Shown here in pieces: positions 44,320 through 61,523 of a stretch of 64,000 nucleotides of DNA; within the stretch, counting starts at the first letter, position 1, and every line of letters begins with the position of its first letter. The stretch lies in the NCBI RefSeq assembly GCF_003031405.1, contig NZ_CP020469.1:3472001-3536000 (forward strand). Reading direction: 5' to 3'. Source of the stretch: Halomonas sp. 'Soap Lake #6'. Lineage in GTDB: Bacteria; Pseudomonadota; Gammaproteobacteria; Pseudomonadales; Halomonadaceae. The translations under genes were made by a program, and so were the position numbers. The notes beneath the pieces are model-generated. The model was not told where the DNA came from. It saw only the letters and a list, made by a program, of their open reading frames with translations, and ran no database searches.

Positions 44320-45351
44320 CTAGTGGCGGCGCATTTGCAACTCTTTAACGACGATATCGCCATCAATGACAATAGGCTCATCATCAAGGAACAGCGAGCA
44401 ATTGCGCATTGGAATATCGAGATGGCAGGCAGTGTCGTTAGGGCCGCCTAGCTCACTATTCGGGCCTGTTGAGAACATCACGTTGCCGTAGAAACTACGT
44501 GGTTCCATGCCCATGCCACCAGGGAACTCACCCGGCACCATACGGTGCCATTTGGCATTAGGGTTCATACCCCAACCCACATGACTCATTCCCAAACCAC
44601 GCGGGTCGTTAAAGCTATCCATATAGGATTTCACCAGCTCAGCATCAAGCCCACCACGTATATCGCTAATCCAGCCCTTCTCAATGGTGTAAGTAATTGG
44701 CTCTCTTACATACATATTCTGCGGTAGCAAGATGTCGCCTGGAGCCACCACAATGGTGCCATCAACACCATCGTCATCACCGCCGGTAAACACAAAGCCA
44801 GAGGGCCAGTGGTCCCAACGGCCTGGCTCATCGGTGCAAGCATACTCGGCAACGGTAGCGTAAGTATTCAGTTGGTAGGTAACATCGGTTCCGTGCGGCG
44901 AGGTGATGCGCATCACCTTGGCTTTTGCCAGCAGCGCAGCGGCCAGCTCGACCTTTTCCCGTAGCTCTTTTGAAGGCAGCATTCTGGCCAGCAGCTCCGG
45001 GGGCTCAACCGCCGTTAGAATGCGCGTGCCCGCGGCTTGAATTGCCATTTGCTCCGGCGAGAACAGCAGAAAAATACAGTCGATCAGCATATCGCAGTTT
45101 TTAAGCGCTTCCACCGCATCAGGCATGCTGGCAAGCCCTGTTGCTCCCACATTCCAACCACCGGTGGGTAACGGCGCAGGCAAACGCATATGGTACATAT
45201 TGGCACCTAAACGCTGCCCTGCCGCCATAAAGGCGTCAGCATAATCAAGGCGTTCACTGCCCTGGGTCAACACCACCAGTTTCTCGCCTTCATGTACACC
45301 AGACATTTTTAGCTGGTGAAGGCAAATTTCCGTAAAGCTTGCATGATCCAT
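44320..45351 (-). CDS. nicX: 2,5-dihydroxypyridine 5,6-dioxygenase
   Basis: 343 residues of the NicX family, related to M29 aminopeptidases. His257 (SHVGWG), His310 and Asp312 (CHLDIP) correspond to the iron ligands known in Pseudomonas putida NicX. It opens 2,5-dihydroxypyridine to N-formylmaleamate, the substrate of NicD. GAGGAG precedes the ATG. It is the last gene of the nicA-led operon, 134 bp after the symporter. Confidence 0.92.
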   Translation of the reverse strand: MDHASFTEICLHQLKMSGVHEGEKLVVLTQGSERLDYADAFMAAGQRLGANMYHMRLPAPLPTGGWNVGATGLASMPDAVEALKNCDMLIDCIFLLFSPEQMAIQAAGTRILTAVEPPELLARMLPSKELREKVELAAALLAKAKVMRITSPHGTDVTYQLNTYATVAEYACTDEPGRWDHWPSGFVFTGGDDDGVDGTIVVAPGDILLPQNMYVREPITYTIEKGWISDIRGGLDAELVKSYMDSFNDPRGLGMSHVGWGMNPNAKWHRMVPGEFPGGMGMEPRSFYGNVMFSTGPNSELGGPNDTACHLDIPMRNCSLFLDDEPIVIDGDIVVKELQMRRH

Positions 45352-45485: not shown

Positions 45486-46994
45486 CTAGGCAGCCGCCTC
45501 TTTAGTAGCCTGATCGGTGACAAGACGGCGCTTTTTACCCAGCTCTTCTGCGATAGCGCCAAAGAAAGCATCGGTGGAGGCTTGGTGAGGCTTGGTGGCT
45601 AAACTAACGCCGACAAACAGTCCACTCGCCACCACAATGCCCCATATGCCGGAGGGCATGCCGAACAGTGAATTGCCGGTGGCATACATCAACAGCACGA
45701 AGGCACTGGTGCCCACCACACTCGCCAATGCACCGGCAGACGTACCGCGTTTCCAGTAAAAAGCACCGATAATGGCAGGTACCATAGCCACTAAGCCTGA
45801 CGATGCAGCCACCGACAGCACCGCAATAAGATCAAGCTGAAGCTCAGCAAACCCCAACGCCATTAGCGCAATCACCGGCACCACAAATTTACCCACCAAC
45901 AGTTGGCGTTTTTCACTAACGTTAGGTTTGACGTTGGCATAGACATCACGGGAAACCATAGAGGCCAGGGTCAGCATGATCGAATCAATGGTGGAGACAG
46001 CCGCGGCCATAATGCCAATCATCACAATCACCCCTAGCACCGGCGGTACAAACTCGGAACCCAGCAGTGTTGGCGTGGCCAAGTCAGCACGTTCCAAGCT
46101 AGGAAAGGCAGCTAAGGCAGAGAAGCCCCACAGCACAGAGACCATGGTGTAGATAAAGCCAAACACCAGGAACCCAATCAGCATATGGCGCATTGAGCGC
46201 AGCGAAGCGGGCATAAACAGGCGCTGACTTACCTGAGGATTGGAGAGACTAAAGAAGAACCAGGGAATCGTTAGCCCTAGGAAAGTAACGAAACTGAACA
46301 GACCTGAGCCCGGTACTGTTAGTGACTGGGGATGTTCCGTTGCCAACGTATCGAAGAGTGCACCGAAGCCCCCCAGGCCTTGAACCACTAGGTAAGCCAC
46401 CAGCGTTGAGGCCACAATCATCATTATTGCCTGAAGCGAGTCGGTCCACATCACCGAACGAATACCCGCCACATAGGAGAAGAAAATAGCGATCACCGTG
46501 GCCAGCACCACTCCGGTGGTAAAAGTAATTGCCCCATCGGTAATACCTTGCAACAGGTAACCAACACCAGCGAGCTGGACGGCCGAGTAAGGAATCAAAA
46601 AGATACAGCTGGCAACCGAGACAGCCATGGCAACATGCTTGCTGTTGTAACGGTGGCCTAGCATTTCGCTGGGCGTCACAAAGCCGAACTTTTTTCCCAC
46701 CGCCCAGAATTTGGGCCCGAAAATAGCGACAAGCGAAACACCGGCAAAATAGATAATTTCAAAACCCAGCGCACCGACGCCCCCAGCATAAGTAAGACCT
46801 GCCAGGCCCACCATCATAAAAGCACTGTACGTTGTGGCACTGTAACTCAGCGCCGAGACAAAGCCGTTCATCTGCCGGTTACCCAGGAAGTAGCCAGACA
46901 TGCTTTCTGAAGGGCCTTGGCGGGACATAATTGCAATGCCTATGGCGATCAATAAATAGATGGCAATCGACCACCAGATTAGTGACTCAGTCAT
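45486..46994 (-). CDS. Sodium:solute symporter (SSS family), probable nicotinate uptake
   Basis: About 502 residues with about thirteen hydrophobic segments. Blocks include GNRQMNGFVSALSYSATTYSAFMMVGLAGL and IRSVMWTDSLQAIMMI (sodium site region). GAGGAG lies eight bases before the ATG ending at 46994. It overlaps the upstream small membrane gene by 8 bp and sits between nicB and nicX, so nicotinate or a hydroxylated derivative is the likely cargo. Known nic clusters use an MFS transporter (NicT), so this is a substitution. Confidence 0.88.
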   Translation of the reverse strand: MTESLIWWSIAIYLLIAIGIAIMSRQGPSESMSGYFLGNRQMNGFVSALSYSATTYSAFMMVGLAGLTYAGGVGALGFEIIYFAGVSLVAIFGPKFWAVGKKFGFVTPSEMLGHRYNSKHVAMAVSVASCIFLIPYSAVQLAGVGYLLQGITDGAITFTTGVVLATVIAIFFSYVAGIRSVMWTDSLQAIMMIVASTLVAYLVVQGLGGFGALFDTLATEHPQSLTVPGSGLFSFVTFLGLTIPWFFFSLSNPQVSQRLFMPASLRSMRHMLIGFLVFGFIYTMVSVLWGFSALAAFPSLERADLATPTLLGSEFVPPVLGVIVMIGIMAAAVSTIDSIMLTLASMVSRDVYANVKPNVSEKRQLLVGKFVVPVIALMALGFAELQLDLIAVLSVAASSGLVAMVPAIIGAFYWKRGTSAGALASVVGTSAFVLLMYATGNSLFGMPSGIWGIVVASGLFVGVSLATKPHQASTDAFFGAIAEELGKKRRLVTDQATKEAAA

Positions 46995-47175
46995 TGCTGT
47001 GCTCCTCAAAATCTTTAGTGATAAACACATTGAGAGCAATGACCGCTAACCCTGCACACGACCAAAACAGGAAGCTGCCGTACCAGAGCGCGACACTGCT
47101 CAATAGGGTGTAAGGCACTAAATAGCAAAGCAAGACGACCGCCCAAACTAACCATATCCATTTACTACGTTTCAT
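46987..47175 (-). CDS. Small membrane protein (DUF3311-like), symporter partner
   Basis: 62 residues with two hydrophobic segments (WIWLVWAVVLLCYLVPYTLL and YGSFLFWSCAGLAVIALNVFI). Small proteins of this type precede SSS permeases such as PanF in many bacteria. It has GAGGTGG before its ATG and overlaps the symporter start by 8 bp. Function is unknown; a small symporter subunit is likely. Confidence 0.75.
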   Translation of the reverse strand: MKRSKWIWLVWAVVLLCYLVPYTLLSSVALWYGSFLFWSCAGLAVIALNVFITKDFEEHSND

Positions 47176-47196: not shown

Positions 47197-50100
47197 TCAG
47201 GGAGTAGAGTGTGTGTTGTTGTGGTGAGGCTGGCGTAAATCAGTGATACGTTGTTCTAGTTGTTGCCAAGGCGCTTTCTCAGGTGCAAAACGCGCTCGCA
47301 GATAGGTCACTAAATCAGCGATTTGGGTATTACTGAAGCTGTCATCAAAGCCCGGCATATTACCGATGCCAGGCACATGATCCGCGTGGACACCACCAAG
47401 AATTGACTGAATGACATTATCGGGGTGATCGCTGTACAAGTTGGTATTCAGCGCCAGGTGGGTACTGGCGCGTGAAAAAGCAGGGACACCGGTCTCCACA
47501 TGACAAGCCGCACAGGCGCCCTCAAAAAGACGTTCCCCCGCTTCCATCCCTGGTGAGCTAACCGCTGAACGGATTACCCGCTGCTCCGCCTTCGCCACGG
47601 TCGCCGGGCTATTACCCGTGGGTGCCTGCATCTGGGCGGCCACATAGTGGGCAATGGCCCGAACATCGTATTCAGGTAGCTCTGCCAAGCCCGCCACAAC
47701 AGGAGCCATAGGGCCAGAGGCAACACCATGCAGCTGCGACTCGCCATGGCGCAGATAGTCGTAAAGCGATGCTTCACTCCAAGGAGTGGGGGCACGTGAC
47801 AAGGTATTAAGCGGCGGTGCTTCCCAGCCATCCACAAAAGCACCAGCCAAATACGCGTTACCGCTTTTCTCGGCGCCCATGGCATTGCGTGGGCTATGGC
47901 AGGCGCTGCAGTGGCCTAACCCTTCGGCCAGATAGGCTCCCCGGTTATACAGTTCGCTTTGCATGGGGTCTGGCTGGAAAGGGGTGGGATCGTGATAAAG
48001 CGCATTCCAGCCCGCCATTAAACTGCGCACGTTGAAGGGGAAAGAAAGTTCATTAGTCGGCTTTTCAGCAGCGACGGGGGGCTGGGCCATTAAGTAGGCA
48101 TAGAGCGCTTGCAAGTCAGTATCACTTGTTTTGGCAAACGCCGTATAAGGGAAAGCAGGATAAAGGTGGCTACCATCACGGCTGATGCCATGGCGCATCG
48201 CCCGCTCAAATGCTGCGTAGGACCACTGGCCAATCCCGGTGGCTTCATCCGGTGTAATGTTAGTGCTGTAAAGCGTACCAAAGGGTGTTTCAAAAGCCCG
48301 CCCTCCCACATTGGTACTTCCCCCTTCAGAGGTGTGGCACGCCGCGCAGTCACCGGCGGCAGCGACCAAGCGCCCGCGCTCAATGGTCTCGGCAGAATAA
48401 AGATTTGCGGCCGGGCGAGCGACCGGCGCAAGGGCACTTTTCCAGGGCCAGGCCATCACCGCAGTACCTGCTATCGTGGTCAAGGCGGCGGCGGCAACCC
48501 AGCGGCGACCACTGGCTCGCTTCTCTAAGCGCTGCTTTGCTGTTCCATCCGCTGCCGACTCGTTTAACGCCTCCCTCACACGCTTGGCCGTAAAAGGGGG
48601 CTGGCGAAAACGGATGCCAGTGGCATCAAAGAGTGCATTGGCAATAACCGCAACGCCAGGGGAAAGCTCTGCAGAGGTTAATATGTCAGCAGGTGCGGGG
48701 CGTAGCCGTGATGTTTTTGTTTGGGTAACGGCAGGGCTATCGCGTTTAACAAGCGCGTTTGGTGCTATCTCACCGCGCTTTTCTGGCACATCACTGCCAT
48801 CGCCCCACTCATCAAACCCAGGTGTTTGCCCTAAAAGAGGGCGGACTTTACCCAATATTCGCTCTTGGAGCGTTTGCTGAAGGCCCGCAGTATCCACCTC
48901 AGGGCCATCATCTTGGCCAACAATTAATCGCGTTAGCTGGACATCGCCCGTAACACGGTTGACCGCAACATCAGCAATCCAAGCTGAGCGAACCCCGGCT
49001 TCCATCCGCTGATGACGATCAGGCAACTGAGCAAAAGCAAAACCGCGCCCCTGCAGCAGGTCTTGCGGCGCTGAGTCGGCGGGTTTCTCGAATGGCACTT
49101 GCCACCCCGCGCGCTTGACCACCGACTCAATTAGCTCGATAGAACGCGCATCCTTAAGGTGACGAAGACGCAGCGACACGGGGTCTTGCCCGCTGTCGCG
49201 AGCCACCTCATCTAAAAAGGATTCCCGCGCAAAAGCCTGCTGTATACCTACTAGCGTGGCGCTGCTAGGAGTCTGCTCAGGTTGCTGGAGGCGCACCGAA
49301 AGGTATTGATCTCGAAAGACATAGGGTGACAAAACAGAGGGTGGCAAGACAGAAGAAGACAACGGCGCTGGATCGCTATCGTCTGCTGGCACTTCCGGTA
49401 TCGTTTCTGGAATAGATTCTGGCATCGTTTCTGGAATAGTTGCTGGCATCGTTTCTGGAATAGCGGCTGGCTCAGTTGCCCTACCGCTTAACCAGAGACC
49501 AACCGCAGCTACTTCACCGCTGCTGTTAGCCTGCCTGTATTGATAACGGGCTATCTCGCCGCTATCGGTAAGCTCAGCTTTTAACGACATTCGCTGGGCT
49601 TGGCCCAGCGCTTCCACATCTCGTGTATAGCGCGCATCTAGCCAAACCGCTACCGGGCAACCCAGTGCTTGGGACATAAGCGCGGCATCCACGGCGGCAT
49701 CATCGCCGCAGTGGCGCCCAAGCCCGCTCGCTGGGTGAGATATCTGCTGCTGATCACTGCTGTAAAGCTCGATCCGCCTCGCATCCAGGCCGGTTAATCT
49801 AGACAAATCCTGCTTAAGCGCCACGGGAGTCGTGGTTTGTCCCCATACCTTCAAATGGTGACCGCTACAATCAGCGGCTGCCCAGCTGGGGTGACTGCCC
49901 CAGCGCATGCGGCTGGGCCAGCCGTATATACGCTGCTCTGAGACTCCAGCTTGTGGCTCCTTATAACGCAGCTCACCACCCATCTCCTCACTATGCTTTA
50001 GCGTTTTATTCAGCTCGCTGCGAAACGCCTGCCACTCAATATGCAGCTGTTTAGCGGCATCCCTGGCCACCGCTAAACTCTCCGCAACCACGCCAACGAA

Positions 50101-50304
50101 ATTCCCCTCCACCACCACATCAACCTGACCCGGCAGTGAAGCCAAGCTGGCGCTATCGACACCCACCAAGTGGGCGCTCTCAAACCGCTCACCATTCCAG
50201 CGGTAGTAAGGTGGACGAACAACGACGCCATAGCGAGCATTGGTAAGCTGGAAAGGTAGGCCTTCGCAACCACCCTCCTGCGATGCCACCATTCGCTTAC
50301 TCAT
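47197..50304 (-). CDS. nicB: Nicotinate dehydrogenase NicB-type subunit, degenerate molybdopterin domain plus three cytochrome c domains
   Basis: 1035 residues from the ATG ending at 50304, which overlaps the nicA stop (ATGAGTAA) and has AGGAGG six bases upstream. Residues 1-585 resemble a molybdopterin hydroxylase large subunit but start at the point equal to residue about 225 of the second copy (55511-57784). The second copy's GVGE motif (Glu709 there) is replaced by unrelated sequence (about residues 540-553), with Ser in the gapless alignment. A transmembrane segment (about 602-620) precedes three haem motifs: CAACH 653-657, CSACH 799-803 and CAACH 931-935. A Pro-rich repeat (about 282-306) is inserted. 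It most likely serves as the electron-transfer subunit, with catalysis by the second copy. Confidence 0.88.
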   Translation of the reverse strand: MSKRMVASQEGGCEGLPFQLTNARYGVVVRPPYYRWNGERFESAHLVGVDSASLASLPGQVDVVVEGNFVGVVAESLAVARDAAKQLHIEWQAFRSELNKTLKHSEEMGGELRYKEPQAGVSEQRIYGWPSRMRWGSHPSWAAADCSGHHLKVWGQTTTPVALKQDLSRLTGLDARRIELYSSDQQQISHPASGLGRHCGDDAAVDAALMSQALGCPVAVWLDARYTRDVEALGQAQRMSLKAELTDSGEIARYQYRQANSSGEVAAVGLWLSGRATEPAAIPETMPATIPETMPESIPETIPEVPADDSDPAPLSSSVLPPSVLSPYVFRDQYLSVRLQQPEQTPSSATLVGIQQAFARESFLDEVARDSGQDPVSLRLRHLKDARSIELIESVVKRAGWQVPFEKPADSAPQDLLQGRGFAFAQLPDRHQRMEAGVRSAWIADVAVNRVTGDVQLTRLIVGQDDGPEVDTAGLQQTLQERILGKVRPLLGQTPGFDEWGDGSDVPEKRGEIAPNALVKRDSPAVTQTKTSRLRPAPADILTSAELSPGVAVIANALFDATGIRFRQPPFTAKRVREALNESAADGTAKQRLEKRASGRRWVAAAALTTIAGTAVMAWPWKSALAPVARPAANLYSAETIERGRLVAAAGDCAACHTSEGGSTNVGGRAFETPFGTLYSTNITPDEATGIGQWSYAAFERAMRHGISRDGSHLYPAFPYTAFAKTSDTDLQALYAYLMAQPPVAAEKPTNELSFPFNVRSLMAGWNALYHDPTPFQPDPMQSELYNRGAYLAEGLGHCSACHSPRNAMGAEKSGNAYLAGAFVDGWEAPPLNTLSRAPTPWSEASLYDYLRHGESQLHGVASGPMAPVVAGLAELPEYDVRAIAHYVAAQMQAPTGNSPATVAKAEQRVIRSAVSSPGMEAGERLFEGACAACHVETGVPAFSRASTHLALNTNLYSDHPDNVIQSILGGVHADHVPGIGNMPGFDDSFSNTQIADLVTYLRARFAPEKAPWQQLEQRITDLRQPHHNNTHSTP
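49390..49461 (-). repeat. 24-bp tandem repeat inside nicB
   Basis: Three 24-bp units (49390-49413, 49414-49437, 49438-49461) encode I-P-E-T-M-P-x-x repeats. They sit in a spacer of the degenerate molybdopterin domain, followed by a shorter 15-bp periodic stretch (Ser-Val-Leu-Pro/Ser-Pro, near 49326-49358). Confidence 0.9.
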
Positions 50305-50785
50305 GAGGTGCCTCCTGCTGCGCGGCGGCATTGATCACCACTGCGCGCTGAGCGGCTTGCAAAATCTCCACATGAGTGCCACAGCGGCAGAGGTTATGTT
50401 CGAGGGCTGCACGTATCTGTTGAGTAGAGGGCTGCGCGTTATGATTTAGCAGCGCACGAATCGCCATAATCATACCGTTCAAACAGTAACCACACTGGGC
50501 TGCCTGGGCCTCGATGAATGCCTGCTGCACGGGATCAAGCTGACCATTCTGAGCAAGGCCATCAAGCGTTGTAATGTCATAGCCAACGGCGGCGGATACG
50601 GGCAGCACGCAAGTGCGTGCAATCATGCCATCCATCAGCACGCTACACGCGCCGCACTCGCCCAAACCGCAGCCATATTTAGGCCCATTGAGCGTCAGGT
50701 CATTACGCAACACATTGAGCAGCGGGGTCTGCGGCGGTACCGACAGTTCACGCTCCTTACCATTGACTGTTAGCTTTAGCGTCAT
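50297..50785 (-). CDS. nicA: Nicotinate dehydrogenase small subunit, two [2Fe-2S] clusters
   Basis: 162 residues. The plant-type [2Fe-2S] motif is YGCGLGECGACSVLMDG, and the C-terminal cluster motif is QCGYC...CRCGTH. NicA passes electrons from the molybdenum site to the cytochrome subunit. It is the first gene of the nicA-nicB-symporter-nicX operon and is divergent from nicC. Confidence 0.94.
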   Translation of the reverse strand: MTLKLTVNGKERELSVPPQTPLLNVLRNDLTLNGPKYGCGLGECGACSVLMDGMIARTCVLPVSAAVGYDITTLDGLAQNGQLDPVQQAFIEAQAAQCGYCLNGMIMAIRALLNHNAQPSTQQIRAALEHNLCRCGTHVEILQAAQRAVVINAAAQQEAPHE

Positions 50786-51228: not shown

Positions 51229-53267
<2,039 letters not shown>

Positions 53268-53276
53268 CAAAGGCCA

Positions 53277-54095
53277 ATGATCATGACGCAAAGCTCCATG
53301 ACTCATAATTCCACAACCCACAATTCCATGACCCACAATTCCATGATCAGGACATACCGTATCGGCCAGATTGTGCCCAGCTCCAACATCACCATGGAGA
53401 CCGAAATCCCAGCGATGCTGGCAGCGCGGCAGTTGATTCGACCAGAACGTTTTACCTTCCACTCCAGCCGTATGCGTATGAAAACCGTCAGCAAGGACGA
53501 GCTGGCCGCTATGGATGCTGAGTCAGACCGCTGCGCCCTGGAGCTGTCTGACGCGGCAGTCGATGTCATGGGCTACGCCTGTCTGGTGGCCATCATGGCC
53601 ATGGGCCCCGGCTACCATCGTGAATCCCAGAAACGGCTACGCAGCCGTACCCAAGAGAATGGCTGCGACACACCAGTGGTCACCAGTGCAGGTGCGCTGG
53701 TGGATGCCCTAGGTGTGATGAAGGCCAAGCGCGTGGTGGTGGTGGCACCCTATATGAAACCGCTGACCGAGATGGTGGTGGACTATATCCGCCAGGAAGG
53801 TATTGAGGTGCTCGACTACCGGGCGCTTGAGATCCCCAACAACCTGGATGTTGCCCGCCACGACCCCGCCAATCTCCCCGAGATTGTCGCTAGCCTCGAC
53901 TTAACCAATATCGATGCGATTGTGCTGTCAGCCTGCGTGCAAATGCCCTCGTTACCGGCTGTCGCCAAGGTAGAAGCTTTAACTGGCAAACCAGTGGTGA
54001 CCGCTGCTATCGCGACTACCTACGCCATGCTTAAGGCGCTAGATTTAGAGCCTATTGTGCCGGGTGCTGGTGCTCTCTTATCAGGGGCTTACTAG
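53277..54095 (+). CDS. nicE: Maleate isomerase
   Basis: 272 residues, Asp/Glu racemase superfamily. The conserved protein starts at MIRTYRIGQIVPSSNITMETEIP (in part; ATG at 53343). The two catalytic cysteines lie in YACLVAIMAMG and LSACVQMPSLPAVAKVE. It isomerises maleate to fumarate, the last pathway step. The ORF reaches upstream through four 15-bp repeat units with in-frame ATGs at 53277, 53283, 53298, 53328 and 53343. An AAAGG at 53269-53273 could serve the first two, so the true start is uncertain. Confidence 0.93.
   Translation: MIMTQSSMTHNSTTHNSMTHNSMIRTYRIGQIVPSSNITMETEIPAMLAARQLIRPERFTFHSSRMRMKTVSKDELAAMDAESDRCALELSDAAVDVMGYACLVAIMAMGPGYHRESQKRLRSRTQENGCDTPVVTSAGALVDALGVMKAKRVVVVAPYMKPLTEMVVDYIRQEGIEVLDYRALEIPNNLDVARHDPANLPEIVASLDLTNIDAIVLSACVQMPSLPAVAKVEALTGKPVVTAAIATTYAMLKALDLEPIVPGAGALLSGAY
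53283..53342 (+). repeat. 15-bp tandem repeat at nicE start, four units
   Basis: Units ATGACGCAAAGCTCC, ATGACTCATAATTCC, ACAACCCACAATTCC and ATGACCCACAATTCC encode M-T-x-x-S type repeats. They match the tctB/tctA unit in length, register and the M-T-H-x-S reading. Confidence 0.92.
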
Positions 54096-54106: not shown

Positions 54107-54775
54107 ATGACGAACCCCAGCCAAGCAAGCAGCGGCAGCGGTGCTAGTGACAGCTCATTAGATGACAACTACAAAGGCGTCTGGGATGGCCGCATTGGTT
54201 TTGGTAAAAAACCCGTGTTACTGGTAGTTGATTTTATGCAGGGCTACACCACCCCAGGCTCACCGCTATTTGCCCAGGGCGTGGTAGATGCCGTGGCCAA
54301 TATGCCACCACTCTTGAACATCGCGCGGCAGACGGGCACGCCCATTATCCACACCAATATTCTGTATCACGCCCCGGATCAAATTGATGGCGGAATCTGG
54401 GTTAAGAAAGCACCGGTAATGCGGGCCATGGTGGCGGGCAACCCCTACGCGGCGTTCTGCCCTGAGGTGACCCCTCGTGAAGATGAACTGGTGATGACCA
54501 AGCAGTATGCCAGCGCCTTCTTTGGCACCTCGCTTGCCTCAACGCTCGTCGCAATGGATATCGATACACTGATCATCACCGGTTGCTCCACCAGCGGCTG
54601 CATCCGCGCCACCGCCGTGGATGGCCTGCAATATGGCTTTCGTGTGATGGTCGTTCGGGACTGTGTCGGTGACCGCCACCCAGCGCCCCATGAAGCCAAT
54701 CTGTTTGATATCGATAGTAAGTATGGCGATGTGATAGGGCTGGATGAAACGCTGGCCTGCTTAGAGGGCCGCTAG
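54107..54775 (+). CDS. nicF: Maleamate amidohydrolase
   Basis: 222 residues, isochorismatase-like hydrolase. Catalytic Asp in VLLVVDFMQGYTTPGSP and nucleophile Cys in IITGCSTSGCIRATAVDG. It hydrolyses maleamate to maleate and ammonia. The first 25 residues are Ser/Gly-rich. Converges on nicR. Confidence 0.93.
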   Translation: MTNPSQASSGSGASDSSLDDNYKGVWDGRIGFGKKPVLLVVDFMQGYTTPGSPLFAQGVVDAVANMPPLLNIARQTGTPIIHTNILYHAPDQIDGGIWVKKAPVMRAMVAGNPYAAFCPEVTPREDELVMTKQYASAFFGTSLASTLVAMDIDTLIITGCSTSGCIRATAVDGLQYGFRVMVVRDCVGDRHPAPHEANLFDIDSKYGDVIGLDETLACLEGR

Positions 54776-54818: not shown

Positions 54819-55301
54819 TCACCCATCCGCATTCATTTTTTCCAGCAGGTGCATCAAGGCAACTCGCTCTGCAGGATTGAGATTCTTCATGGTCTGATCG
54901 CTGATCTGCTTCGCGCTGGGCACCATTTCTTCTACCAGTGCGGCCCCCGGTTCGGTGATCACGACCATGACTTTACGCTGATCGTTAGGATCGGTGGTTA
55001 AGGTAATCCATTCACGCGCTTTGAGGCGTTTAATAACACCACGGATTGTCGCAGGGTCTATCGCCGTGGCGTTGACGATTTCGGTCAGTGAACTGGGGCC
55101 ACGTTCCATCACTGTACACAGCGTGACAAACTGGATGGCCGTTAACTGTTTATCGCTGCTGTAGCGCTGAAAAATGGCCGTATGCCGCTGGTAGGCTTTA
55201 CGTAGTAGGTGGCCCACTTGTTCAGAAAAATCATACCCCTGCTCTGAAGGCGTGGGGTGCTCGCCGGAAGACGAGTGATTGAGCGCACTATCCATTGTCA
55301 T
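54819..55301 (-). CDS. nicR: MarR-family regulator of nicotinate genes
   Basis: 160 residues with a MarR winged helix (LTAIQFVTLCTVMERGPSSLTEIVNATAIDPATIRGVIKRL, given in part) and the wing WITLTTDPNDQRKVMVVIT. In P. putida NicR is a MarR-type repressor of nicCDEFTP induced by 6-hydroxynicotinate. Location between nicF and the nicB2 operon supports the same role. Confidence 0.9.
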   Translation of the reverse strand: MTMDSALNHSSSGEHPTPSEQGYDFSEQVGHLLRKAYQRHTAIFQRYSSDKQLTAIQFVTLCTVMERGPSSLTEIVNATAIDPATIRGVIKRLKAREWITLTTDPNDQRKVMVVITEPGAALVEEMVPSAKQISDQTMKNLNPAERVALMHLLEKMNADG

Positions 55302-55510: not shown

Positions 55511-57784
55511 ATGGCTGTTAAATCAGACTATACAAGACAGTCACTGTTGCTTGACCCCGACCTTCTGGTTATCTATCGAGACCCAATCACACCTCCCAAG
55601 CCTGCGCCAGGACAACCAGGTACACACTCGGATTTTACCCCACGCGAGCCCGAAATCTTCATTGCTGTATTGAGCGACGGCCATATCCTCGCATTCAACG
55701 GACACGTGGATTTGGGCACCGGCATACGCACGGCATTGGCGCAAATTGTCGCTGAAGAGTTAAGCGTGCCTTTCGACAACGTCACCATGGTACTGGGCAA
55801 CCCCTTTGAGGTACCCAATCAAGGGCCTACTATTGCCAGCGCGACCATACAAATCACCGCCGAACCACTGCGCCGAGCAGCAGCGCAAGCACGGGAATAT
55901 CTGCTCACGCTGGCGGCACGCCACCTAAGCGTCGAGCGCGAAGCACTTCGCTGCCAAGACGGGTATATACAACACATCAGCGATAAGCACCTTGTATCGG
56001 TTAGCTATGGCAAGCTGCTCGTCGGTGCTCGGCATGCGTTGAAATTAGCTGACAGTGCCCCCCTCAAGCCAATCAGCGATTACACATTAGTAGGACGGCC
56101 TACCTCTCGTGTGGATATACCTGACAAAGCCACCGGCAAATTAACCTTTGTGCATGACCTACGCCTACCCGACATGCTACATGGGCGCGTCATTCGCCCA
56201 CCTTATGTGGGCCACGACAGCGGTGATTTTATCGGTAGCAGCTTAGTGGCTGTCGACGAAAGCTCCGTGGCGCACTTACCAAGTGTGGTTAGCGTCGTCG
56301 TCATAGGCGACTTCGTCGGCGTCGTGGCTGAGCGGGAAGAGCAAGCTGCGGAGGCTGCAAGGCAGCTCAAGGTTGAGTGGCGCCCCATCGAAGACTTGCC
56401 CCAGTTGGATAATATCGAGAAAGCGCTGCTGGAGCTGCCCAGCAAGCAGCGCATACTGCTCGAAGAGGGCGATCTCGATAGCGCCCTTGCCGCTGCAGAC
56501 CAACCACTCAGTCGCCACTACGTTTGGCCTTTTCAACTGCATGGCTCCATAGGCCCCTCTTGCTCGGTTGCCGATGCCAAACAGGACGCATTGCACCTTT
56601 GGTCAGGCACCCAGAACCCGCATAGTCTAAGAGCCGATCTCGCCCGCCTTACCGGCCTGGATGAAAGTGTCATTACGATTACCCGCATGGAGGCCTCGGG
56701 TTGCTATGGGCGCAACTGCGCTGATGACGTTGGCGCCGATGCGGTGCTGCTTTCCCAGGCGGTGGGGCGCCCGGTGCGCGTGCAATTAACCCGCGAGCAG
56801 GAACACACCTGGGAGCCCAAGGGGGCAGCTCAATACATGGCCATTCAGGGTGGTTTGAATGCCGACGGCAGCCCGGCTGGCTACCGTTTTAGCACACGCT
56901 ACCCCTCTAACAGCGCACCGACGCTTGCGCTACTACTGACCGGGGCCGCTCCTCCTATCGATATCCCCTTTGAGATGGGCGACCGAACGTCGGTACCGCC
57001 CTACCGCTACCCCCATCGGCAGATTATCTGTGAGGACGTGCCCACCCTTATCCGCGCCTCCTGGCTGCGCGGTGTCTCAGCGCTGCCCAACACTTTCGCC
57101 CACGAAAGCTATATCGATGAACTTGCCTATTTGGCGGACGAAGATCCGGTCATCTATCGGCTGCGTTACCTGGCTGACGCCCGCGCCTGTGAGCTTGTTG
57201 AAGCACTCATCAAACGCGCGAACTGGCAGCCTGGCACCGCCAACGCCAATCCAGTCAGCGATGGCGATTGGCGCTATGGCCGCGGCTTTGCTTATGCCCA
57301 ATACGTGCATAGTAAATTCCCTGGCTTTGGTGCTGCGCTAGCTGCTTGGGTCGTTGAGCTTAAGGTCAATGTGAAGAGCGGCCGCATCGTCGTCGAACAG
57401 CTATACATCGGCCAGGATGCCGGCCTCATGGTAAATCCCGCCGGGGTGCAACATCAGGTGCATGGCAACGTGATCCAGATGCTCAGCCGCACCTTAAAAG
57501 AGCGGGTCACCTTTGAAGATGGCTTACCTACCAGCAAAGAGTGGGGCGGATACCCAATCCTGCGTTTCTCTGAGCTTCCTCCTATCGACGTCATGCTGCT
57601 TGATCGCCCTGAGCTGCCGCCATTAGGCGTCGGTGAGTCCACCTCACTACCTGGCGCTCCAGCGATAGCTAACGCCCTCTTCGATGCTACGGGGGCTCGC
57701 TTTACGTACCCTCCCTTTACCCCTGAAACAGTACGCGACGTATTAAAAGGGTATTTTCAGCAGCCGTTGGAGGCCGTCCTTTAA
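55511..57784 (+). CDS. Molybdopterin-binding large subunit, intact, without cytochrome domains (second NicB-like)
   Basis: 757 residues; the ATG at 55511 has GGGAGG seven bases upstream, better than the TTG at 55445. The full molybdopterin-domain order is present: GHVDLGTGIRTALAQIVAEEL near 65-85, GCYGRNCADDVGADAVLLSQAVGRPVRVQ (in part) in the middle, ASWLRGVSALPNTFAHESYIDELA (in part), and PPLGVGESTSLPGAPAIANA with likely catalytic Glu709. No signal peptide and no CxxCH. It is homologous to the first half of nicB at 47197-50304 but complete. It is probably the true catalytic subunit of the nicotinate dehydrogenase, pairing with NicA; a different hydroxylase is the alternative. Confidence 0.85.
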   Translation: MAVKSDYTRQSLLLDPDLLVIYRDPITPPKPAPGQPGTHSDFTPREPEIFIAVLSDGHILAFNGHVDLGTGIRTALAQIVAEELSVPFDNVTMVLGNPFEVPNQGPTIASATIQITAEPLRRAAAQAREYLLTLAARHLSVEREALRCQDGYIQHISDKHLVSVSYGKLLVGARHALKLADSAPLKPISDYTLVGRPTSRVDIPDKATGKLTFVHDLRLPDMLHGRVIRPPYVGHDSGDFIGSSLVAVDESSVAHLPSVVSVVVIGDFVGVVAEREEQAAEAARQLKVEWRPIEDLPQLDNIEKALLELPSKQRILLEEGDLDSALAAADQPLSRHYVWPFQLHGSIGPSCSVADAKQDALHLWSGTQNPHSLRADLARLTGLDESVITITRMEASGCYGRNCADDVGADAVLLSQAVGRPVRVQLTREQEHTWEPKGAAQYMAIQGGLNADGSPAGYRFSTRYPSNSAPTLALLLTGAAPPIDIPFEMGDRTSVPPYRYPHRQIICEDVPTLIRASWLRGVSALPNTFAHESYIDELAYLADEDPVIYRLRYLADARACELVEALIKRANWQPGTANANPVSDGDWRYGRGFAYAQYVHSKFPGFGAALAAWVVELKVNVKSGRIVVEQLYIGQDAGLMVNPAGVQHQVHGNVIQMLSRTLKERVTFEDGLPTSKEWGGYPILRFSELPPIDVMLLDRPELPPLGVGESTSLPGAPAIANALFDATGARFTYPPFTPETVRDVLKGYFQQPLEAVL

Positions 57785-58752
57785 TGCACCACCTAGACCT
57801 ACAGGTGATTGAACGCGCGCTTAAATGGGCTAATCAGGGAGTTACTGTTTGGCTCTGTACGGTATTGAGAACCTTTGGTTCGTCACCTAGGGAACCAGGG
57901 GCCATGCTGGCCACCTGCCAATCAGGTGAATACGTGGGTTCACTGTCAGGAGGATGTGTCGAAGAAGACTTTATCGCACGGCTCCAAAATGGTGAGTTTG
58001 AAGAGCCGGTACAGCGGGTACGCTATGGTGGTGAGGACAGCTCAACGGATATCCGTTTACCCTGCGGAGGTAGCCTTGAAGTACTGGTTGAGCGGCTAGC
58101 GCCAAACACCGAAAACCTCATCCATCTAGAAGTGATGCATGCCACGCTACTGGGTCGCCAACCGTTAACCCGCTGTATCAGATTGGATGGCAGCGGCAAA
58201 CATTTTAACCCCTCAAATAACACCGAGCCCACCGTTACTTTCGATACGGCTAGAGTCAATATCCGCATCGGCCCTGCGTTACGGCTGATTATCGCGGGGG
58301 TCTCCTCAATCTCATCCCCCTGTGCACTATTTGCCCAATCGCTCGGTTTTGAAGTGATCGTTTGCGATCCCAGAGATGAGATCCGGAAGAACTTCAACAT
58401 ACCCGGCGTAGAAGTACAGGCAGTGCTGCCCTCTGTATTTATCGCCTCAGGCGCTTGCCACGCTAACACTGCCGTTGTCGCTTTGACCCATGATCCGCGT
58501 ATTGATGATTTAGCGATGATTGAGGCCGTTCGTACGGAGGCGTTCTACATTGGTGTGATGGGCTCCCAGCAGACCTCGCAACAGCGTGCCAAAAGACTGC
58601 TACGCTCCGGAGGTCTGACGGAAACCCAAGTAGCAAGAATCGCCATGCCGGTTGGGCTCAATCTGGGTAGCAAAACACCGGCTGAGATTGCACTAGCCGT
58701 GATGGCCGATATTGTTCGCCTCTATCGTGGAAAAGAGCGCCATGCCTTGTAG
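57784..58752 (+). CDS. XdhC/CoxI-family molybdenum cofactor insertion protein
   Basis: 322 residues. N-terminal CoxI block (TVLRTFGSSPREPGAMLA, GCVEEDF) and a C-terminal Rossmann-like XdhC domain (VVALTHDPRIDDLAMIEAV, FYIGVMGSQQTSQQRAKRL). XdhC-type proteins modify and insert molybdenum cofactor into hydroxylases. Its ATG shares one base with the nicB2 stop, so it is a dedicated maturase for that subunit. Confidence 0.9.
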   Translation: MHHLDLQVIERALKWANQGVTVWLCTVLRTFGSSPREPGAMLATCQSGEYVGSLSGGCVEEDFIARLQNGEFEEPVQRVRYGGEDSSTDIRLPCGGSLEVLVERLAPNTENLIHLEVMHATLLGRQPLTRCIRLDGSGKHFNPSNNTEPTVTFDTARVNIRIGPALRLIIAGVSSISSPCALFAQSLGFEVIVCDPRDEIRKNFNIPGVEVQAVLPSVFIASGACHANTAVVALTHDPRIDDLAMIEAVRTEAFYIGVMGSQQTSQQRAKRLLRSGGLTETQVARIAMPVGLNLGSKTPAEIALAVMADIVRLYRGKERHAL

Positions 58753-59374
58753 TGATGTTATTGTCATCGTGATGGCAGCAGGCCAATCAAGACGCTTTGG
58801 CAGTGATAAAAGAGCCGCCAAACTGAGTAGCGGAGAAACACTACTTAGCACCACTTTACTGACTATCCAAAAATACTTCTTACATAGCCGCGTTGTGATT
58901 AAACCCGAAGATAACGCCCAATCACTTGGCCTATCGTTAATGACTCCCACCATTATTAGCCCGCGCAGCCATTTAGGTCTGGGATTCAGTATCAGTGATG
59001 CTTTCACACATTTAATCCAAGATAAAGATATGCACCACTATCATGCTGCGGCGATATGGCTTGGAGACTTACCGTGGGTAAGTCTCCAAACATGCAGCTT
59101 ATTAACCAAGCTGGTCACTCCAGAGAGCATCGTACAGCCGCTATATCAACGAAAACCGGGGCATCCCGTTATTTTTGGAAGAAAATTCTGGTGTGAACTA
59201 GCACATTTAGAAAACGAAAAAGGCGCAAACTCCGTCATTAAAAAGCATAGCAACCGTATTATTAACGTCACAATAAGCGACCCAGGCGTGTGCTCTGATG
59301 TCGATTATCCTGATGATTTAATCAAACTACCAAACAACAAAAAGACACATAAACGCCATATAACAACCCAATAA
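58742..59374 (+). CDS. MobA/MocA-like molybdenum cofactor nucleotidyltransferase
   Basis: 210 residues. VIVMAAGQSRRFGSDKRAAKL is the NTP-transferase signature, and WLGDLPWVSLQT the metal site. MocA-type enzymes make the cytosine dinucleotide form of the cofactor used by xanthine-oxidase-family hydroxylases. It overlaps xdhC by 11 bp; GGAAAAG lies upstream. Confidence 0.85.
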   Translation: MPCSDVIVIVMAAGQSRRFGSDKRAAKLSSGETLLSTTLLTIQKYFLHSRVVIKPEDNAQSLGLSLMTPTIISPRSHLGLGFSISDAFTHLIQDKDMHHYHAAAIWLGDLPWVSLQTCSLLTKLVTPESIVQPLYQRKPGHPVIFGRKFWCELAHLENEKGANSVIKKHSNRIINVTISDPGVCSDVDYPDDLIKLPNNKKTHKRHITTQ

Positions 59375-59531: not shown

Positions 59532-61523
59532 ATGAAAAAAATTTCTCGTCTTTCACTGACGCAGAAACTTCTGGCTGCGGTCGCCATTCCGCTATTTGTG
59601 GTGGCCATTATTCTCGGCATTGTCGTCAATCAACAGCTTAACCGGGCGGTCACTGATCTCGTGGAAAATGCGAGTACCAACCAGGTAGAAGCACGTGCAG
59701 ATGAAATCAGCCGCTGGATTGCAGGCCACCGTGACTGGATAGCCGTATTGGCTCAAGACGAGCGGCTCGCAGAGGATACTCCTATCAACGCTCATTTGGG
59801 CTGGCTGGCAAAGCGGCATCCTGCAGGTACCACCATTGAATCGCTATTTTTCAGTAATGCAACGGGCGCTACCTTAACCCATGCAGGTGTGGCACTGGAT
59901 GTCACGGAGCGCGCTTATTTCAAAACCCTCGTCACCGAGGGCACCAGTGATAGCCTACTCATTGATCCTGTGGTCTCTATGGTCAGCGGCCTGCCCACAG
60001 CGATTGTGGCCGACACAGTGTTTGATGAACGTGACAACCGAGTAGGCTTACTGGGTATGACCGTTTCTATGGCGGCGGTCTCTGATATCACCTCAGCAAT
60101 CGATGTTGGCGAAGGTAGCTACGGGTGGATGATTGACAGCCAGGGCCAAGTGATTGCGCACCCGGATGAAGCCTCACGCATGACGCTGAATTTTACAGCC
60201 GCCGACCAGCATGGCTACCAAGGTATGGATAACCTCAGCCAGGAGATGCTAAGTGGGACAGCGGGTTCAGGGGTGGTAACACTCCCTAATGGCCAACGCG
60301 ACGCCATTATGTGGAGCCCAGTCGAGGGAACCTCGTGGGTAGTCGGTGTGAATGTGCCCCTCAGCACCTTCACAGCGGTGACTAGCGACCTGTTACGCTC
60401 TCTGCTTATTGCTGGCGCGCTGCTGCTGATTATTTTATTACTCATCGTCGCATTTGCTGCTCGACGTGCGCTTGCTCCAATTAAACACACGGCCAGTGCC
60501 ATGGCGGATATTGCCCAAGGCCAAGGTGATTTAACACGCCGTTTAGAAGCCAAAACCCAGGATGAAATTGGTGACCTTGCCCATGGATTCAATGCTTTTG
60601 TAGAACGTATGCAGTCCACTCTTCAGGAAGTGCGCCAAAACGCTCGCACGGTATTGTCAGATGCCAGCGATATGGCAGCGGGTACTCAAGAGCTTTCGTC
60701 ACGCACCGAACAAGCGGCGGCCAACCTCCAGGAAACATCTGCCTCAATGGAGCAGATCCACTCCACGGTATCGCATACTTCCCAGGCTTCGGAACAGGCG
60801 AATAGCTTGGCCCTTGAAGCTGCTAATGCCTCAGAGCGCGGCACTGAGTCCATGAACCAAATGGAAGCCAAGATGGTCGCCATCAGCGAATCCGCTAATA
60901 AAATCAGCAATATTATTGGCTTGATTGACTCGATTGCTTTTCAAACCAATATCTTAGCACTCAACGCATCAGTTGAAGCTGCCCGTGCCGGTGAGCAAGG
61001 CCGCGGGTTCGCCGTGGTTGCCAGCGAAGTACGCACACTGGCCAGCCGCTCAGCGGCAGCCGCTCACGACATTCGGGCTTTGATTGATATGTCTGTTACC
61101 CACTCAAAAGAAGGGGGCGACATCGTCAAGGCAGCGGCTGAACGCATGCAAGAAATTCGACAAAGCGTCACCCAGGTGTCGGATGTAATCGCTGAAATTG
61201 CTGCAGGTGCCCGAGAGCAAACCACTGGCATCCAACAAGTCAACACAGCGGTTGCCGAGATGGATATGATGACCCAGCAGAATGCAGCCATGGTCAGTCA
61301 AAGTGCAACGCTTGCCTCGAACATGCGAGACAACGCCCAAAGGCTTGATCAATTGATGAGTGATTTTGTGCTTAATGAAGGTGGCGCTTCCACCACCGCG
61401 CTGCCTTATACCGCATTTCACCAAGCGCGCCCTGCAACAGGTGCTGCATTACCCCAAACACCCAAACGCCCGACCCCGCCTGCTAAGCAAAAGCATGAAG
61501 TAGCAGAGTGGGAAGCGTTCTAA
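59532..61523 (+). CDS. Methyl-accepting chemotaxis protein with dCACHE sensor
   Basis: 663 residues: transmembrane 1 (about 10-35), periplasmic double-CACHE-like sensor (about 40-285), transmembrane 2 (LLIAGALLLIILLLIVAF), HAMP, and a signalling domain with the hairpin tip SIAFQTNILALNASVEAARAGEQGRGF (in part). It ends EVAEWEAF, resembling the CheR/CheB-tethering pentapeptide. Downstream of the nic genes, it may sense nicotinate or another organic acid; the ligand is unknown. Confidence 0.93.
   Translation: MKKISRLSLTQKLLAAVAIPLFVVAIILGIVVNQQLNRAVTDLVENASTNQVEARADEISRWIAGHRDWIAVLAQDERLAEDTPINAHLGWLAKRHPAGTTIESLFFSNATGATLTHAGVALDVTERAYFKTLVTEGTSDSLLIDPVVSMVSGLPTAIVADTVFDERDNRVGLLGMTVSMAAVSDITSAIDVGEGSYGWMIDSQGQVIAHPDEASRMTLNFTAADQHGYQGMDNLSQEMLSGTAGSGVVTLPNGQRDAIMWSPVEGTSWVVGVNVPLSTFTAVTSDLLRSLLIAGALLLIILLLIVAFAARRALAPIKHTASAMADIAQGQGDLTRRLEAKTQDEIGDLAHGFNAFVERMQSTLQEVRQNARTVLSDASDMAAGTQELSSRTEQAAANLQETSASMEQIHSTVSHTSQASEQANSLALEAANASERGTESMNQMEAKMVAISESANKISNIIGLIDSIAFQTNILALNASVEAARAGEQGRGFAVVASEVRTLASRSAAAAHDIRALIDMSVTHSKEGGDIVKAAAERMQEIRQSVTQVSDVIAEIAAGAREQTTGIQQVNTAVAEMDMMTQQNAAMVSQSATLASNMRDNAQRLDQLMSDFVLNEGGASTTALPYTAFHQARPATGAALPQTPKRPTPPAKQKHEVAEWEAF

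Follow-up and report, generated by a model that had tools for sequence, protein, structure and literature searches.

A degenerate molybdenum domain on the cytochrome protein of a Halomonas nic cluster, a possible membrane dock for a split nicotinate dehydrogenase

The window analysed here, a 64,000-nucleotide stretch of Halomonas sp. 'Soap Lake #6' (contig NZ_CP020469.1, positions 3,472,001 to 3,536,000; all coordinates below count from its first letter), carries a nic cluster with two NicB-like proteins. We call the one studied here NicB-psi (47197..50304, minus strand, 1035 amino acids), because the names nicB1 and nicB2 are already used in print. It consists of a degenerate molybdenum domain (residues 18-590; 48535..50253), a probable membrane helix (residues 602-620; 48445..48501) and a three-haem cytochrome c occupying about the last 400 residues, with CxxCH motifs at residues 653 (48334..48348), 799 (47896..47910) and 931 (47500..47514), all on the minus strand. 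Over its first 590 residues the likeness to a molybdenum domain is faint (Pfam MoCoBD_1, 24.6 bits, below the cut-off of 27), and residues 613-1033 match 8gy3_A (expectation value, E, 7.1e-107); the three CxxCH motifs and this match over the whole subunit place NicB-psi among the three-haem cytochrome c subunits of membrane dehydrogenases. The other protein, NicB-Mo (55511..57784, plus strand, 757 amino acids), is a complete molybdenum subunit without cytochromes, and has the complete domain, the Gln, the Arg and the GxGE motif (GVGE, residues 706-709; 57626..57637, plus strand) of a catalytic subunit of the xanthine oxidase family. NicA (50297..50785, minus strand; Fer2 and Fer2_2), with two [2Fe-2S] domains, is encoded directly ahead of NicB-psi.

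NicB-psi lies in an open reading frame at 47197-50331 (minus strand) and starts at the ATG at 50304, which is preceded at a spacing of 6 nucleotides by the ribosome binding site AGGAGG (50311..50316, minus strand); the gene shares 8 nucleotides with the end of nicA. Both features bear out the sequence-only reading of this DNA, which had taken this for the real start. The distance from the nicA stop to RPP, the first conserved NicB-psi motif, is at most 87 nucleotides in the loci of the same bacterial family where it was measurable (42 of 43), leaving no room for an N-terminal domain. No N-terminal remnant was found near NicB-psi, the search of its own genome returning at the locus only parts that match residues 218-490 and 525-746 of NicB-Mo.

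Aligned by BLASTP, NicB-psi and NicB-Mo are 32% identical over 598 positions, the alignment beginning at about residue 18 of the former and 217 of the latter; the N-terminal loss reported earlier therefore stands, at about 200 residues instead of 220. The reported loss of GxGE was found as well, and it extends further: NicB-psi lacks counterparts not only of the GVGE of NicB-Mo but also of Gln368 (TQNPH) and Arg520 (WLRG), both invariant in active relatives. It thus lacks what defines a catalytic subunit of the xanthine oxidase family, and many framework residues of the molybdenum domain are still present. A NicAB-type protein, with a complete molybdenum domain and three CxxCH motifs on one polypeptide, is not found here, NicB-Mo being without cytochromes.

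The losses were followed in three sequence sets, their proteins drawn from the best 120 matches of each protein search: truncated proteins (132: the window protein, 83 proteins and 48 loci; 130 distinct sequences), separate molybdenum proteins (134: the window protein, 82 proteins and 51 loci) and fused NicB (223: 146 proteins and 77 loci). Dropped were P0096 and P0327 (both of full length and carrying a variant motif), P0309 (a piece of a fused protein), 14 proteins classed as 'other', molybdenum-only proteins numbered below P0121, and the later loci L229-L262. Arg520 and GxGE are absent in 132/132 truncated rows, the Gln is kept in two only (P0107 and L108), and a Glu stands in the GxGE column in 14 of the 132, never within a GxGE; the sets were sorted partly by the N-terminal motif, which makes counts for that motif circular, and the counts of Gln, Arg and GxGE are free of this. 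An even shorter domain is present in Burkholderia arboris (L247), with the first haem at residue 456 of the frame and the N-terminal hammerhead part not seen, and in genome G1102 (L245), with an open frame of 904 codons (frames were taken from the first start codon, and some exceed the true protein length). It looks as if erosion were still going on in some lineages.

Matches to this dead domain occur in 78 of the 250 genomes of the family, comprising 43 truncated NicB-psi and 35 weaker matches (best E 2e-26) to other superfamily proteins. NicB-Mo of at least 60% identity is present in exactly those 43 genomes, always on the same contig as NicB-psi. In the 42 family relatives whose loci were fetched, nicA and NicB-psi run divergently from nicC, and further along come nicR and NicB-Mo; not every nic gene was recognised in each locus. 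Close relatives with a full-length NicB at this position, the case that would have spoken against a domain loss, were looked for and none was found among the 43 family loci; the loss read at 47197-50304 is real, but it is common to the whole clade and not peculiar to this genome. In one of the 43 loci (L076, genome G006) NicB-psi is broken into several pieces; the NicB-Mo next to it has 774 codons.

The pair of NicB-psi and NicB-Mo is also found outside the family: in five genomes of the order (L209-L213), which NicB-Mo places close to Alloalcanivorax and Endozoicomonas; in one Herbaspirillum assembly and in Cupriavidus necator and C. pauculus (L121, L152, L161); in 4 of 300 Burkholderiales genomes (L229, L230, L231, and L232 with L245); and on plasmids of Caballeronia insecticola (L246) and Burkholderia arboris (L247). 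NicB-Mo accompanies NicB-psi in all 57 truncated loci for which the neighbouring genes were read, a count that leaves aside proteins known only from protein searches, and some dead domain is present in every one of these 57. The scan of 300 Burkholderiales genomes gave no NicB-psi without NicB-Mo in its 20 matched genomes, all of them read: four hold truncated forms, each with NicB-Mo, and the rest hold fused NicB, distant molybdenum proteins (36-38% identical to NicB-Mo) or bare cytochromes. In the scan of the order, all of the 18 matched genomes but G521 were read, likewise with no such counter-example. The cut-off of E 1e-60 can miss strongly eroded copies (the copy of G1102 fell below it), and the scan of 369 genomes of the class was too sparse.

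Relatives further removed have a fused NicB of full length adjoining nicA (L214, L215 and L260), with no separate NicB-Mo in the fetched stretch; L256 and L257 are further fused-NicB loci. A contig scan of the best 80 loci from 549 relatives gave 75 fused NicB, three truncated forms (L121 being cut by a contig end) and two molybdenum frames cut by contig ends. Another arrangement, in which a separate molybdenum protein and a NicA-like protein stand with a bare three-haem cytochrome that has no molybdenum-domain remnant, was found in L208, L223, L234, L248 and L258, and nicCDEF were not seen in the fetched stretches of these five loci.

In a tree of the molybdenum region, a branch supported at 100/100 separates all 28 sampled truncated rows from the rest, a value that may be inflated since these rows are long branches; in the cytochrome tree, where their branches are not long, 27 truncated rows form one group among fused NicB (support 92/98). 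An earlier and rougher FastTree of 133 rows, rooted at the midpoint, placed P0105 and P0107 with the active proteins and not with the other truncated rows. These trees are most simply explained if the truncated forms arose once, from a fused ancestral NicB. Constraining the truncated rows to group with the separate molybdenum proteins cost 0.00 log units (approximately unbiased test, p-AU 0.508), grouping them with fused NicB improved on the unconstrained tree by 3.39 (p 0.577), and grouping them with the X group fell short of it by 5.71 (p 0.28); these results do not single out a sister lineage among active NicB, and we therefore make no claim of a duplication of NicB-Mo itself. The branch that sets apart the separate molybdenum proteins (25 rows, L208 excepted) is supported at only 56/97.

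The sequence-only reading had also held that the gene is still under selection. The ratios of nonsynonymous to synonymous substitution rates (dN/dS) between family loci agree, and purifying selection acts on the molybdenum-like domain itself, not just on the cytochromes: the medians are 0.166 for the dead-domain core, 0.209 for the whole domain and 0.081 for the cytochromes (177 pairs each), and 0.458 for the linkers (165 pairs), compared with 0.092 for NicB-Mo (192 pairs), 0.116 for NicA (191) and 0.037 for NicC (192). These values come from 41 of the 43 loci (without L076 and L105, the latter cut by a contig end), and the pairs share branches and are not independent. The dead domain is neither neutral nor held as tightly as an active domain. 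In the predicted structure, the predicted local distance difference test (pLDDT) exceeds 90 in many core strands and helices, and the domain is predicted to keep much of the molybdenum-domain fold; with its catalytic residues lost and its gene under selection, it answers to the description of a pseudoenzyme as far as the fold, a prediction with limits given below, can be relied on. Within the dead domain, an unstructured linker with a pLDDT below 50 at residues 293-318 contains a repeat of three copies of a 24-nucleotide unit (49400..49471, minus strand), which encodes mainly Pro, Glu, Thr and Ile. The nearest relative of NicB-psi among the database matches listed is P0001, named Halomonas sp. 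and 98% identical; it is 4 residues shorter at this linker (1031 against 1035 amino acids).

That the transmembrane segment and three CxxCH motifs are intact, as read earlier, is correct for the motifs; the segment is less hydrophobic than in fused NicB. The mean hydropathy of the best 19 residues is 1.33 in NicB-psi, 1.38 across 131 truncated rows and 1.93 across 223 fused rows. Lys and Arg are commoner before the helix than after it in 110/131 truncated and 215/223 fused rows (six before and two after in NicB-psi), and this positive-inside pattern makes it likely that the molybdenum-like domain is on the cytoplasmic side. No export signal was seen by eye on NicB-Mo or NicA.

The remaining genes of the cluster fit a nicotinate pathway. 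Linked to the dehydrogenase genes are those for a nicC-like flavin adenine dinucleotide (FAD) monooxygenase (51235..52422; FAD_binding_3), a nicD-like alpha/beta hydrolase (52419..53267; NCBIfam matches below cut-off), a nicE-like isomerase (53277..54095; Amdase) and a nicF-like isochorismatase-fold amidohydrolase (54107..54775; Isochorismatase), all on the plus strand, recognised by Pfam family and cluster order and named by cluster position. A nicR-like MarR regulator (54819..55301, minus strand; MarR) follows, and behind NicB-Mo come an XdhC-like chaperone for cofactor insertion (57784..58752, plus strand; XdhC_CoxI and XdhC_C) and a MocA-like molybdenum cofactor cytidylyltransferase (58712..59374, plus strand; NTP_transf_3; TIGR03310 at 93.4 bits, below the cut-off of 186.45). 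On the other side, a sodium:solute symporter likely to serve uptake (45486..47039, minus strand; SSF) adjoins NicB-psi, as it does in 38/42 fetched family loci. The protein of 343 amino acids at 44320..45351 (minus strand) has no Pfam or NCBIfam match; judged by homologues of 42-48% identity inside the nic clusters of several relatives, it is probably NicX, a dioxygenase. A dCache chemoreceptor at 59532-61523, with a homologue recognised in 23/42 fetched family loci, lies beside the cluster and might sense nicotinate or a related compound.

Compared with known systems, the locus shares with the fused NicAB of the Pseudomonas putida type NicA, the molybdenum domain, one helix, three CxxCH motifs and linked nicCDEF (L215), but there a single NicB of about 1187 residues carries molybdenum domain and cytochromes, whereas here they are divided between two proteins, the cytochrome one with a dead molybdenum domain. 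NicB-Mo is the likely catalytic counterpart, as it is 62% identical to the molybdenum part of the fused P. putida NicB (P0187, 1187 residues); from this identity and the nic cluster we infer that the enzyme converts nicotinate to 6-hydroxynicotinate. The best solved-structure match for both the molybdenum and the cytochrome part is the Gluconobacter membrane aldehyde dehydrogenase (8gy3), which likewise has separate molybdenum and three-haem cytochrome chains; its 444-residue cytochrome chain aligns over the cytochrome part only and is thus without a molybdenum-domain remnant.

The nicotinate hydroxylases of Burkholderia gladioli and Bordetella are reported to be tripartite (NicA, NicB1 and NicB2; PMC10269826), and the Delftia acidovorans Cs1-4 cluster is described with nicB2 adjoining nicA and nicB1, called an aldehyde dehydrogenase, at the far end (PMC4572682); by gene position, the Delftia nicB2 would be the cytochrome copy and nicB1 the molybdenum copy. 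Both are probably the same arrangement as here, and the tripartite arrangement is already known in outline. A dead, selected molybdenum domain on the cytochrome copy was not seen in the open-licence papers searched, which omit most subscription journals. The nicotinate dehydrogenase of Comamonas testosteroni JA1 is reported also to have a separate large molybdenum subunit (21, 82 and 46 kD, the third called a flavoprotein; PMC10331938), but 46 kD is too small for a molybdenum remnant plus a three-haem cytochrome.

We favour, with a probability of about 60%, a three-subunit nicotinate dehydrogenase in which NicB-psi docks NicA and NicB-Mo at the membrane. NicB-Mo would oxidise nicotinate, NicA would take the electrons and pass them through its iron-sulfur clusters, and NicB-psi would be the membrane-bound exit subunit whose cytochromes carry them away. 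The dead domain would descend from a working fused NicB (molybdenum domain, helix and cytochromes, as in Pseudomonas) that lost its N-terminal cofactor-binding part and its catalytic residues, the remainder being kept as a folded protein-binding module. Because it is likely on the cytoplasmic side, it would be a natural dock and may hold NicA and NicB-Mo beside the helix and haems. The step to a scaffold, which the sequence-only reading also took, is an inference. The wider claim, a pseudoenzyme of the xanthine oxidase family that probably arose once, is conserved in beta- and gammaproteobacteria and acts as the cytoplasmic dock tying a soluble molybdenum/iron-sulfur hydroxylase to membrane cytochromes, we put a little short of an even chance. 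Several observations weigh against docking. The bare-cytochrome loci indicate that electron exit needs no molybdenum-like domain in principle, and given the short domains of L247 and L245 not all of the dead domain can be essential everywhere. The helix is weak, with hydropathy above 1.6 in 21% of 131 truncated rows compared with 82% of 223 fused rows, and the dead-domain core changes at about double the rate of the cytochromes. A Foldseek comparison of the NicB-psi model with 8gy3_C gave template modelling (TM) scores of only 0.49/0.41 at a root-mean-square deviation of 10.7, and the input alignment of the model (68 rows, 11 of them active proteins) may favour the parent fold. Between the dead domain and its proposed partners, rates co-vary weakly (partial r 0.28 for NicB-Mo and 0.37 for NicA, over 820 pairs that are not independent), too weakly to serve as evidence. 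Haem c must be attached outside, and both NicA and NicB-Mo seem to be cytoplasmic; how electrons would get across the membrane has no explanation in this reading, a difficulty shared with fused NicB.

The domain might instead be a relic that the fused ancestor left behind, tolerated and retained only because its loss would disturb translation or the helix, with only the cytochromes mattering; the fast linkers (dN/dS 0.458), the varying repeat linker, the smaller domains of B. arboris and G1102 and the existence of bare-cytochrome systems speak for this, but the core dN/dS of 0.166 over 177 pairs, the part of the domain found in 57/57 loci read and the pLDDT above 90 for many core strands and helices make this unlikely. 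Xanthine-oxidase-type enzymes are often dimers, and we hold it slightly less likely again that the domain pairs as one half of a heterodimer with NicB-Mo, which it would tune or mature in place of docking it: it is a paralogue of NicB-Mo (32%), and its partial rate co-variation is 0.37 with NicA and 0.28 with NicB-Mo against 0.09 with its own cytochrome part (non-independent pairs), yet fused and bare-cytochrome relatives are without such a partner in the fetched stretches. That NicB-psi still binds the molybdenum cofactor or has a second activity is highly improbable with Arg520 and GxGE gone in 132/132 rows and the N-terminal cofactor part missing (the rows being chosen by that), even if two rows (P0107, L108) keep the Gln and many framework residues remain. 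As for a pseudogene, a frameshift or a mis-called start, the gene in pieces in one of 43 family loci (G006, L076) is the one observation in its favour, and for the window protein we take it as ruled out by 1035 open codons, the ribosome binding site, the nicA overlap, the lack of room for a longer N-terminus in relatives and purifying selection.

If docking by the dead domain is right, it would be a precise addition to a known enzyme group and no new kind of system. It would account for the roles of the two NicB proteins in tripartite nicotinate hydroxylases and caution against labelling both as catalytic, and fused NicB, the split form with a dead domain and the bare cytochrome would make a series for studying how a split redox enzyme is re-wired to the membrane.
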